This document shows, piece by piece, positions 15,732 to 20,160 of a stretch of 64,000 bases of DNA. The stretch is from Muribaculaceae bacterium (GTDB taxonomy: Bacteria; Bacteroidota; Bacteroidia; Bacteroidales; Muribaculaceae): assembly GCA_017557625.1 (NCBI GenBank), contig JAFYYG010000028.1, forward strand, positions 24,629 to 88,628, written 5' to 3'. Under the pieces are notes generated by a model, which saw only the letters and a program-made list of their open reading frames with translations, did not search any database and was not told the DNA's origin. Positions within the stretch are counted from its first letter, which is position 1; every line of letters begins with the position of its first letter. The position numbers and the translations under genes are program-made.

Positions 15732-17639
15732 CTATTTGATTATAATCTTCTTGCCATTGTGGATGTAAATGCCAGCAGGGAGGTTGTTGCCGTTCATCAT
15801 TCGGCCCATCAGGTCATAGTAGTTGTTGTCGTGTGGGCGTGGAGTGTCGACATTGATATTGTCGATGGGAGTGTAGTCAGGGGTGTGAACACGGTAGGCG
15901 GCATAACCGTTGCCCATGGTATATTCATAAACCATAACACTCTTGCCTCTTTCGGGCACCACACGGAAGAATGAGCCTACAGAGGGATTGGCATAATAGC
16001 CGCCAGTCCCCATAGGAGGAATGGTGGCCACTGCTGTGGCTTCGGCGCTCATGTCGCGGATTGAGAAGCCGCCGTTGTAGTTGCTGCCGCTGGTGTAGAG
16101 AAACATCTCGTGGCCGTCGAGCTCAAAATAGGCACCTCCCACCGACGAGTTGCTGTTGGGGGTTGTGGTGTTGAGTGAGCCGGGGATATATTTGCCCTTG
16201 TCGGTGCCGTTGTAGAGATAGTAGCCCTGATTGCGCACTTGATAGACGAAGTGGTAAGGGTCGTTATCGATGGGGTAAATCACACCTGCCGTAGAACCAG
16301 CAAACGAGACTCCATCTGTCATTTCAACGCCATCAAACTCTCCGTTGACAATTTTGACGAGTGTAATATATGATCTTCCGTTTTGGTAGTGGTAAACGTA
16401 TCCGCCATCTTCGCTCATCACGTCGCCAATGGCACTGATGAAGTTGGTTTGACCAGCTTCATCGAGTTCAAAATCCACCTCAACAGGTTCGGCATTTATG
16501 TCACCGTTAGGATATATAATTAGTTTGTTGGGAGTCGATGTGACACCGTCGTTGCGCTGAATCAAGTTTCCTGCACTGTCGAAACAGATGCCATGGCTGC
16601 TCGTTCCAGGTGCTTCGGTTAATGTGCCGTCGGGCTTGAGAATTACAAGTTTGCTGGTTGTGTAGTTGTTAGCATAGAAAGTTCCATCGGTTGTGATAGC
16701 GGCTTGTTGCGCTGACTTGTAAGGAGAAGCGTCGGCATCAAGCCCCGAAGGAAAATTTGCTGGCAGGTTGCCTTTTTCGCGGGTGTAGGAGAACACGGTG
16801 TCAACCACCACTTGCAGCGGCTCCATAGGTTCCACGATGGCATCCCAGTTGATGTCTTGGAGTTCGGGCATATCGCTCGGCATGAGGTAGTCGCAGGTCA
16901 TCATCGCTACGCCCATATTGCCATAGAGGTTGTAGTTGGCTAGTGAGTTCACTGTCCACACAGCCACTTCAAGGCCCTTGTCATGGAACTTCTTTACGGT
17001 GTAAATGTCAAAGCAACCAGCCTCTATGCTTGGCGTTAATCCCCATTGCACAATCCAGTCGAAATGGGTTGACCAGTTGCTGTTACACAGGAACTGGCAT
17101 TTGAGAGCGGGGTAGTTGGTGCGAACATACTCCAGCGAGTTGCGCATCGAGGTAAGGATGATAGCCTTGTCGGTAAGACCTTTTTCCTCGATGAGAGCGG
17201 CAAGTCCAGGGAACTTGCTCATGTCGTTGTTGTTGATGCCTGTGGTCCATTTGAGCTCTATCACTGGCGTTACATTTTTCTCGGCACAGATGTCGAGATA
17301 CTCGGCAACAGTGCAGATGTGTCCAGTATAGGTCACGCCACCGCGGGTCTGTGTGTAGGTCTCGGCCTGCAGTTCGGCGAGGGTGGCGTTGGCAACGGTG
17401 AGGTTGCCGCCTACCGAGTTAGTGGTCTCGTCATGGCTAATCACGTAGTAGCCGTCGGCAGTGACACGCACGTCACACTCAAGGCCCTGATAGCCATAAT
17501 GGTCCACTCCGTTGTTGTAAGCCTCAACGGTGTTCATCACTCCCATGTAGCTGCCACGGTGGCCAATGAAGATGGGCTTCCATGCCCAAACACTTATCGC
17601 GCAGGCGACAGTAAGAATAGCTAGTAAAAATCTTTTCAT
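15732..17639 (-). CDS. Exported glycerophosphodiester phosphodiesterase-like protein with T9SS-type tail
   Basis: A 635-residue secreted protein. Signal peptide (MKRFLLAILTVACAISVWA), then a GDPD TIM-barrel at about residues 22-260 with the catalytic signatures FIGHRGSYMGVMNTVEAY and ECDVRVTADGYYVISHDET. Residues about 290-590 are a second, repeat-like beta-rich region (likely propeller) with recurring GG/Y..N patterns. The last 40 residues (YYDLMGRMMN...LPAGIYIHNGKKIIIK) match the Prevotella-type C-terminal sorting tail for type IX secretion or surface attachment. It should release glycerol-3-phosphate from phosphodiesters outside the cell; the substrate is unknown. It has its own promoter at 17676-17706. 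Confidence 0.85.
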   Translation of the reverse strand: MKRFLLAILTVACAISVWAWKPIFIGHRGSYMGVMNTVEAYNNGVDHYGYQGLECDVRVTADGYYVISHDETTNSVGGNLTVANATLAELQAETYTQTRGGVTYTGHICTVAEYLDICAEKNVTPVIELKWTTGINNNDMSKFPGLAALIEEKGLTDKAIILTSMRNSLEYVRTNYPALKCQFLCNSNWSTHFDWIVQWGLTPSIEAGCFDIYTVKKFHDKGLEVAVWTVNSLANYNLYGNMGVAMMTCDYLMPSDMPELQDINWDAIVEPMEPLQVVVDTVFSYTREKGNLPANFPSGLDADASPYKSAQQAAITTDGTFYANNYTTSKLVILKPDGTLTEAPGTSSHGICFDSAGNLIQRNDGVTSTPNKLIIYPNGDINAEPVEVDFELDEAGQTNFISAIGDVMSEDGGYVYHYQNGRSYITLVKIVNGEFDGVEMTDGVSFAGSTAGVIYPIDNDPYHFVYQVRNQGYYLYNGTDKGKYIPGSLNTTTPNSNSSVGGAYFELDGHEMFLYTSGSNYNGGFSIRDMSAEATAVATIPPMGTGGYYANPSVGSFFRVVPERGKSVMVYEYTMGNGYAAYRVHTPDYTPIDNINVDTPRPHDNNYYDLMGRMMNGNNLPAGIYIHNGKKIIIK

Positions 17640-18004: not shown

Positions 18005-18217
18005 ATGACGAAGAATACCTTTACCGTTAGTGGCATGAAATGCGTGAACTGCAAGGCTAATGTGGAGCGTGCTATTAAGGCATTGCCTGGTGTGGCTGAG
18101 GCGGTTGTCAGTCTTGAGGATGCTTGTGTTGCAGTTGAGTATGACGAGGCACAAGTCACTGCACAAGATATGAAGGATGCAGTTGAGGACCTTGGGCGAT
18201 TTGAAATGACTATTTAA
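18005..18217 (+). CDS. Heavy-metal-associated (HMA) domain protein, CopZ-like
   Basis: A 70-residue stand-alone HMA domain with the metal-binding loop [15 protein letters not shown] (CxxC). It is probably a cytoplasmic Cu(I) chaperone that hands metal to the adjacent P-type ATPase. Its stop codon overlaps the ATPase start (TAATG), so the two are translationally coupled. Copper specificity is inferred from the family and the partner; the domain alone does not rule out other soft metals. Confidence 0.9.
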
Positions 18218-20160
18218 TGCGCAAGACTCTTCCTGTCATAGGTATGGCGTGCTCGGCTTGTTCGGCTAATGTGGAGAACAAGCTGCGGGAGATTGCTGGG
18301 GTTAATGAGGCTTCGGTGAACCTCGTTGGTCGCACCGCTACGATAGATTATGACCGTGCGCGGGTGTCGCTGGAAGAGATAAAGCGGCAAATTAGCGATA
18401 TAGGCTATGACATGGTGATTGACGATGATCGCAGTGTGCAGGAGATTGAGGCGCGCGAGTGGAAACTCCTCAAACGCAAGACCATAATGGCGTGGGTTTT
18501 TGCGGTCATGGTTATGTGTCTGTCGATGGGATGGGTTAATGCCGGTGGCAGGGATGCCGCAAATCAACTATCGCTGATAATCGCTCTTGCATGTATCATC
18601 TTGTGCGGCAGGGAGTTTTATGTGTCGGCGTTCAAGCAACTCAGGCATGGCATCACCAGCATGGATACGTTGGTGACACTGTCAACAGCTATAACATTCT
18701 TGTTCAGTGCTTTCAACACCTTTTATGGCGAAACTGTTTGGGGAACACGAGGCATAGAGTGGCACTCCTATTTCGACGCCGTGACGATGATTATCGCATT
18801 TGTCCTCACAGGAAGATTGCTGGAGGAAAAGGCGAAGGACAGCACCGCAACAAGTCTGCGCCAGCTCATGGGCATGTCGCCCAAGACGGCAAGGGTCGTC
18901 AGCAAGAAACATCCAGTAGAGGGCGATGAGGTTGGCGAAATGGTGCCGATTTCCACCATCGAGAAAGGTGACCTTCTTGAGGTGCGTGCCGGCGAGAAGA
19001 TTCCCGTTGATGGCGAGGTGACATGGGCGTCGAGTTTTATGACCGACGATGCCGCCTACGTTGACGAAAGCATGATAACCGGCGAACCCACGCCTGCCGT
19101 GAAACGTGTGGGCGACAAGGTGCTTGCTGGCACCATTCCGAGTCAGGGACGCTTGCGACTCAGGGCGCGCCAGGTGGGCGAGGAGACTGCCTTGGCGCAG
19201 ATCATCGCCATTGTCCAGCAGGCTCAAGGCTCTAAGGCTCCTGTTCAGCGACTCGTTGATAAGGCGGCGAGCGTGTTTGTGCCTGTAGTGGCGGTAGCAG
19301 CTTTGCTCACCTTTGTGCTATGGATAATAATTGCAGGTTTAGACTCACTGCCTCAGGCGATTATCTCAGCAGTAGCGGTGCTTGTAGTGGCATGTCCGTG
19401 CGCTATGGGTCTTGCCACTCCTACTGCATTGATGGTTGGCATGGGCAAAGCTGCCGAGCGGCAGGTTCTTATCAAAGACGCAACTGCCCTCGAACTGCTG
19501 CGCAAAGTCGATGCACTTGTCACCGACAAAACCGGGACATTGACTGTCCCCAACAAAAATCTGGTGGATTTTACCCGTGCCGACGATTTGGCACTTGATG
19601 AGCGAGAGACTATGAAACCTAACGTAAGAGAGGTGATTGATGCATTGAAACAGATGGGCATTGAGGTTCATCTGCTCAGCGGCGACAAGGAGGAAGCGGT
19701 GCGATATTGGGCACAGAAAGTAGGTGTCGAGCATTGTCAAAGCGGGGTTATGCCAGCCGATAAAGAGGCACTTGTCAAGCAGTTACAGAGCGAGGGAAAG
19801 ACCGTAGCTATGATGGGTGACGGTATCAACGACACCCAGGCTCTGGCTCTTGCCGACGTGAGCATAGCCATTGGCACCGGCACCGATGTGGCGATGGATG
19901 TGGCGCAGGTCACCCTTATGGGAAACGACCTGCAAAGTGTACCAACCGCCGTTAATTTGAGCCGAAAAACCGTCAAGATGATATGGCAGAATCTGTTTTG
20001 GGCTTTCATCTACAATATTGTGTGTCTGCCTCTTGCGGCAGGTGTGCTGCATCTTTTCGGTATCAACTTCCAGATAACTCCCATGTGGGCGGCAGCACTG
20101 ATGGCACTCTCGAGCCTCTCGGTGGTGCTTAACAGTTTGAGATTGAAGTTTTCAAGTTAG
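18217..20160 (+). CDS. Copper-type P1B ATPase lacking most of the nucleotide-binding domain
   Basis: A 647-residue ATPase. An N-terminal HMA domain ([11 protein letters not shown]) is followed by the P1B membrane core with the ion-site motif [12 protein letters not shown] (about 391-402), the actuator TGE (MITGEPTPA), the phosphorylation site DKTGTLT (Asp about 436) and the hinge [15 protein letters not shown] (about 533). Only about 50 residues separate DKTGT from the LLSGDK motif, against roughly 170 in ordinary CopA. The N-domain with its HP motif is absent, replaced by a short charged linker ([20 protein letters not shown]). The C-terminal helices ([18 protein letters not shown]) are intact. 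A clean reading frame argues against simple decay. How it binds ATP is the open question. Confidence 0.88.

Follow-up and report, generated by a model that had tools for sequence, protein, structure and literature searches.

Copper-type P1B ATPases without a nucleotide-binding domain: a putative copper exporter of Muribaculaceae and apparently repeated domain loss in bacteria

Closest described systems

The nucleotide-binding domain (N-domain) is regarded as a defining part of P-type ATPases, among them the P1B-1 Cu+-ATPases (CopA, ATP7A/B). Here we describe a copper-type pump gene from which this domain is missing, located at positions 18217-20160 (+) of a 64,000-nucleotide stretch of contig JAFYYG010000028.1 from a Muribaculaceae bacterium (assembly GCA_017557625.1); this whole stretch is referred to as the window. 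The window pump shares with P1B-1 ATPases the HMA domain, the membrane plan and the motifs TGE, CPC, YN, MxxSS, DKTGT and GDGxND, and its best matches among solved structures are ATP7B (7xuk) and AfCopA (7r0g). It differs from them in the absence of the whole N-domain (~100 residues) and in reading SGD at motif II, where they have TGD. Judged by its sequence, it is a descendant of a P1B-1 ATPase but not a standard member, because the defining N-domain with its HP motif is lacking.

The P1B-2 Zn/Cd-ATPases (ZntA/CadA) belong to the same superfamily and have separate forms without an N-domain (hereafter N-less), namely the Zn/Cd-type pumps with a CPCALV site at loci L074, L117 and L147 of Prevotella relatives. 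The window pump, in contrast, has the ion site CPCAMGLAT and Cu-type transport-site residues, and does not pass the P1B-2 model TIGR01512 (305.6 bits, cut-off 313.5). Cap-less (C0) HAD phosphatases such as KdsC and KDN-9-phosphatase resemble it in having a bare HAD Rossmann domain, but in the window protein this domain is part of one chain with a complete P1B membrane domain and an A-domain. C0 HAD phosphatases also carry DxD where the window pump keeps DKTGT, and the NCBIfam model of KDN-9-phosphatase matches only weakly (residues 477-551, 31.8 bits, cut-off 180). Mj0968 of Methanocaldococcus is a soluble, P-domain-like HAD protein without N-domain, membrane domain or A-domain, and is no ion pump. 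A literature search covered titles and abstract openings and few subscription journals; none of the matches listed describes N-domain-less P-type ATPases.

A Cu(I)-type pump from which the N-domain is missing

The gene is one uninterrupted frame of 647 amino acids with the parts given below, where invariance refers to an alignment of 61 N-less proteins, most of them drawn from a DNA pattern that requires DKTG, GD and GDGxND.

18217..20160, +, Cu(I)-type P1B ATPase without N-domain, 647 amino acids; TIGR01511 with 498 bits against a cut-off of 397, in two stretches
18226..18411, +, N-terminal HMA metal-binding domain, residues 4-65; Pfam PF00403, E 6.4e-15
19078..19086, +, A-domain dephosphorylation motif TGE, residues 288-290; G289 and E290 invariant
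19393..19401, +, CPC ion-site motif, residues 393-395; invariant
19525..19539, +, catalytic DKTGT with Asp437; the pattern match begins at 19525; kept in 22/22 carriers of the genus from the protein search; invariant, with DKTG presupposed by the DNA pattern
19546..19614, +, short linker in place of the N-domain, residues 444-466, from the AlphaFold2 model; ratio of nonsynonymous to synonymous substitution rates (dN/dS) 0.14 for residues 447-466
19678..19686, +, HAD motif II SGD, residues 488-490; most full-length Cu pumps read TGD here
19762..19764, +, P-domain Lys516 (PxDK), presumably motif III; invariant
19816..19833, +, GDGIND, residues 534-539; from the short-gap motif pattern and the 61-protein alignment
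20101..20115, +, MxxSS, residues 629-633, which with YN at residues 599-600 we take to be the Cu(I) transport-site residues of P1B-1 pumps; Y599, N600, M629, S632 and S633 invariant

From Asp437 it is 51 residues to SGD, with no HP motif in between, and 97 to GDGIND. Of 41 full-length loci of the order (among them three second copies of the same gene; L184 gave no measurement), 39 have 181-219 residues from DKTGT to GDGxND; the remaining two give 314, the regular expression having apparently caught an earlier chance motif. From DKTGT to motif II, 13 full-length loci (L010-L022) have 136-173 residues. The short-gap motif pattern occurs once in the window and in none of 100 shuffles. In 30 aligned N-domains of full-length relatives, SEHPL and GxG are invariant or nearly so, and the piece missing from the window pump is the N-domain of about 100 residues that carries both. 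Pfam E1-E2_ATPase covers residues 220-415 (E 1.4e-47), and Pfam Hydrolase matches at residues 456-547 only with the C-terminal part of its profile (positions 89-191). In the AlphaFold2 model the P-domain is complete and no N-domain is present; the linker of ~25 residues forms two short strands and two short helices (predicted local distance difference test score 61-78 for the block).

The excision of the N-domain from an otherwise intact pump, which the initial annotation had proposed, is thus borne out by motifs, Pfam matches, gap lengths and the AlphaFold2 model. That annotation placed the Asp at about residue 436, ~50 residues from SGD and ~97 from GDGIND, in agreement with our measurements, whereas its values of ~170 and ~220 for CopA-type gaps were right in kind and slightly high. 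A minimal N-domain within the linker, one of two findings it named as counter-evidence, is ruled out by the AlphaFold2 model, with nothing but short helices and strands there, and by the linkers themselves, whose lengths and sequences are unrelated from lineage to lineage. The other, a frameshift or assembly error, is ruled out by the clean frame and by the presence of the gene in many other genomes. The wide spread and repetition of the N-domain loss described below had not been foreseen.

Distribution of N-less pumps

A protein search (E <= 1e-60) recovered the gene from 22 of 101 genomes of the window's genus, and in all 22 DKTGT and GDGxND are kept, 94-97 residues apart. Further carriers include the named isolates P. 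denticola NCTC13067, H. buccalis ATCC 35310, H. bergensis DSM 17361 and Segatella baroniae B14. Together with the 22/101 genomes of the genus, these rule out a read error. Across 198 genomes sampled from the order, only the window's match, among the matches listed, spans the N-domain position to the query end.

Scanning genome contigs for DKTG, a short gap, GD, a short gap and GDGxND gave at least 118 loci, at least 115 of them N-less; L081, L119 and L128 turned out to be full-length pumps that matched by chance. With pump types assigned from sequence and record titles, the N-less loci comprise in Bacteroidales at least 89 of the Prevotella (window) type, at least 12 of a second type and at least three of the Zn-type of Prevotella relatives, and elsewhere at least seven in Bifidobacteriaceae, at least two in Lachnospiraceae and at least two in Kiritimatiellae; since the scan accepted no Asp codon but GAC and required intact DKTG, GD and GDGxND, it could not pick up N-less pumps whose motifs are broken, and the spread is a lower bound that gives no prevalence.

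Of 121 genomes sampled from the family around Bifidobacterium, at least 26 hold an N-less orthologue (L204-L229; in some of these an insert follows motif II), and many others a full-length one. Low-complexity inserts of varied length lie near motif II and GDGIND in the Bifidobacterium N-less pumps L218-L222, L224, L229 and L252. Two further Bifidobacterium N-less pumps (L048:472-3045 and L126:369-3164) have a cupredoxin-like N-terminus and a C-terminal YHS domain, without an HMA match. Bifidobacteriaceae also have apparent pseudo-pumps (L230/L243, L234-L237, L239-L242, L244-L247, L251), with frames of ~640-740 amino acids (450 in L251) that match across the missing N-domain and from which DKTGT and GDGxND are gone; some have also lost CPC or TGE, and several of these genomes hold a full-length Cu pump as well.

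The Lachnospiraceae search at a strict E of 1e-120 returned one of 100 genomes, the query genome itself, so that the sister of the Lachnospiraceae N-less lineage is poorly sampled. Of three records from a plasmid search, one is N-less: a pump on a complete, plasmid-labelled replicon of 317 kb from Segatella hominis HDD12 (NZ_CP137560.1). A Spirosoma plasmid match that had seemed free of a gap proved to be full-length. The S. hominis pump is annotated plainly as "heavy metal translocating P-type ATPase", and TIGR01511 places the window pump 101 bits over its cut-off despite the missing N-domain; N-less pumps can escape notice in databases, as family models go on labelling them copper-translocating or heavy-metal P-type ATPases.

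Repeated loss of the N-domain

Trees were made from alignments with the N-domain columns removed. The quick tree of 98 rows needs nine changes between N-less and full-length labels, at least seven of them forced by starred branches. The careful tree, for which 30 long branches or near neighbours were removed by hand to leave 68 of the 98 rows, needs eight, all forced by starred branches (8-9 in bootstraps). A single origin of the Cu-type N-less form was rejected by the approximately unbiased test (p 1.14e-44; 37 N-less versus 31 rows). The N-domain is present in other P-type families, and the changes are therefore read as losses, putatively eight independent ones, six in Cu-type and two in Zn-type pumps. 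The Cu-type losses would be those of the Prevotella (window) type, the second Bacteroidales type, Bifidobacterium, L249/L250, Lachnospiraceae and Kiritimatiellae; the Zn-type losses would be those of L117 and of L074 with L147, a union that the careful tree leaves without resolution. The Kiritimatiellae loss looks recent, because the N-less pump L121 and a full-length pump (genome G608) are 73% identical over residues 7-516 and 70% over residues 470-783. Separate and repeated losses in related pumps suggest that N-less pumps are possibly powered in a way not yet described.

Motif II, linkers and selection

When the eight N-less lineages were compared with their full-length sisters over 576 columns, column 488, which holds the Thr of the motif II TGD, came out on top with a change from T to S in five lineages, ahead of next-best columns with three. 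Bifidobacterium, which has S as well, was left out of the five since S also occurs in one of its two full-length sisters. Among Cu-type rows, this column reads S in 149, T in three and no call in four N-less proteins, against T in 44, S in three and no call in one full-length protein; among rows called Zn-type by script, where automatic typing also placed the Cu-type L233, N-less proteins have S in three and T in one, and full-length proteins S in 11 and T in 20; since the rows are related, none of these counts is an independent test.

Nearly all lineages retain the DxxK/R segment that directly follows the N-domain; in the Prevotella type of the window it reads ExxK. Linkers show no visible motif common to the lineages and go down to 34 residues between DKTGT and SGD in L249. 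This shortest N-less form, in which about five residues stand in for the N-domain, is found in L249 and L250, which come from small genomes (0.7-1.0 Mb) of the Bifidobacterium family sample. The N-less pump has a dN/dS of about 0.05 and no internal stops. The chemistry of the P-domain appears to be kept and retuned.

Putative mode of action

We consider it possible, at a probability of roughly 45%, that the window protein is a working P1B-1 Cu+ exporter that is phosphorylated without binding of adenosine triphosphate (ATP) by an N-domain, with an acyl phosphate, for example acetyl phosphate, as the most plausible donor. Cu+ would be handed over by the product of the neighbouring gene:

18005..18217, +, CopZ-like HMA protein of 70 amino acids with CxxC; Pfam HMA, E 1.8e-15

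Cu+ would then bind at the CPC/YN/MxxSS site, and Asp437 of the cap-less HAD-type P-domain would be phosphorylated directly by a donor for which no adenosine grip is required; E1-E2 switching would be driven by the resulting aspartyl phosphate, which TGE of the A-domain would then remove. As donor, a small acyl phosphate would rank first, acetyl phosphate foremost, and ATP docked by its phosphates only would rank second, with a protein that is no pump in third place. Acetyl phosphate carries more energy than ATP. Conserved catalytic residues, strong purifying selection and the overlapping CopZ-like gene favour a working pump over a phosphatase, chaperone or sensor. Small donors can still serve a P-type pump with a blocked N-domain ATP site: H+,K+-ATPase treated with fluorescein isothiocyanate retains 76% of its p-nitrophenylphosphatase and 1.7% of its ATPase activity and, according to the authors, hydrolyses acetyl phosphate (PMC4215238). 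N-less carriers are able to make acyl phosphates, which is consistent with such a donor: acetate kinase was detected in all 23 N-less genomes (partial matches in G353 and G364) and PTA_PTB in 20 of 21 carriers, three of these 20 being weak.

Several observations weigh against acyl-phosphate powering or against an active N-less pump in general. Acetate kinase is similarly common in the control set, where 50 of the 51 genomes, selected for their full-length P1B pumps, have matches (weak ones only in G209); acyl-phosphate metabolism therefore does not discriminate between 23/23 and 50/51, and these genes failed as a marker of N-less carriers. In the second Bacteroidales lineage, PTA_PTB is weak in G314, G315 and G318 (E 1e-38 to 1e-39) and has no match in G312. 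The sign test for T to S over eight independent pairs is borderline (median p 0.0625, range 0.016-0.375), Zn-type N-less lineages lack the change, and S occurs in some full-length pumps. Invariance of DKTG, GD and GDGxND in the 61-protein alignment is partly by construction, because the DNA pattern requires these letters. Finally, the Bifidobacterium N-less paralogues without the catalytic Asp indicate that N-domain loss can yield an unphosphorylatable protein there.

More tentatively than for the single pump, the N-less forms may constitute a convergent class of nucleotide-independent Cu- and Zn-type P1B pumps of gut, rumen and oral fermenters, with about eight N-domain losses in our sample, powering by acetyl phosphate or another acyl phosphate directly at the aspartate and a retuning of motif II from Thr to Ser in the Cu-type lines. 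If true, repeated N-domain loss under selection on the phosphorylation machinery would demonstrate that a nucleotide grip is dispensable for the pump cycle, and N-less pumps would be a natural test of acyl-phosphate powering of P-type pumps.

Alternative explanations

An unlikely but serious alternative is an active Cu+ pump still driven by ATP, with phosphates gripped weakly by the P-domain alone or with help from other cytosolic parts; N-domain loss would then merely lower the affinity, tolerated at millimolar ATP and low demand. P-domain residues handle the transferred phosphate and Mg, and their retention in the 22 genus carriers and the 61-protein alignment fits this explanation, as does the widely kept DxxK/R segment. 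However, linkers that vary in length and sequence among lineages provide no conserved substitute for adenine binding, and the parallel change from T to S at motif II suggests altered use of the active site.

We also doubt that the protein is a pump no more, acting instead as a Cu+-gated phosphatase or sensor or as a passive Cu+ conduit through the transport site. Cap-less HAD domains are often phosphatases, and the Bifidobacterium paralogues without DKTGT and GDGxND imply that the scaffold can persist without a phosphorylation site; yet both motifs are kept in 22/22 genus carriers, which were found without the DNA pattern, and G289 and E290 of TGE as well as Lys516, needless for a passive conduit, are invariant in the 61 proteins. 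The Bacteroidales carriers inspected, moreover, show no CPC Cu-type pump besides the N-less one. A second Cu-type pump, full-length or otherwise, is absent from the window's genome, in answer to a check that the initial annotation had suggested; its sole other P-type ATPase has 952 amino acids and is of another kind. Further matches in the 21 other genus carriers have 29-34% identity over the first piece and 36-42% over P-domain pieces, and the 13 further pumps inspected are of the Zn-type. An N-less Cu-type protein is encoded in 44 of 45 N-less carrier genomes, and G320 has the N-less Zn-type only; for some of these genomes an unbroken match, instead of a fetched locus, was the basis for N-less status. 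H. buccalis and H. bergensis additionally hold a CPH-type gene, and G319 and G321 have an N-less Zn-type beside the N-less Cu-type pump, with no full-length P1B pump found at E <= 1e-20.

Supply of the N-domain in trans by another protein is quite improbable, although a split P-type ATPase is conceivable and ATP binding through a separate protein had been put forward in the initial annotation. A profile built from 30 N-domains has no match in the window's genome (E <= 0.01), which lends that proposal no support; the completeness of this genome is 88%, and the profile would not detect a nucleotide-binding fold of an unrelated kind. The 20 other carriers searched gave 23 matches; the 21 inspected all lie within P1B pumps (19 in full-length CPCALV Zn-type pumps, two in CPH-type pumps, one of these with a broken frame), so that no stand-alone N-domain gene was found among them. 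Domain deletions often mark pseudogenes, but a decaying gene headed for loss is hardly credible in view of the low dN/dS, the lack of internal stops, the presence in 22/101 genomes of the genus and the upstream HMA gene, which is kept in the three genus neighbours examined.

Gene neighbourhood

The stop codon TAA of the CopZ-like gene overlaps the ATG of the pump gene by one base (TAATG), and NCBIfam CopZ models match its product below their cut-offs. An open reading frame (ORF) for an HMA protein, overlapping or not, lies just upstream of the pump in L034, L036, L037, L290 and L291; none lies beside the pump in L289 or in five inspected loci of other lineages (L048, L059, L074, L079, L121). 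In Bifidobacterium callitrichos, the N-less pump is divergent from a RicR/CsoR-like gene of 93 amino acids (137 bits, RicR cut-off 175). On the other side of the CopZ-like gene, an ORF of 635 amino acids with a long C-terminal part occupies 15732-17639 (-) of the window; we take its start to resemble glycerophosphodiester phosphodiesterase.
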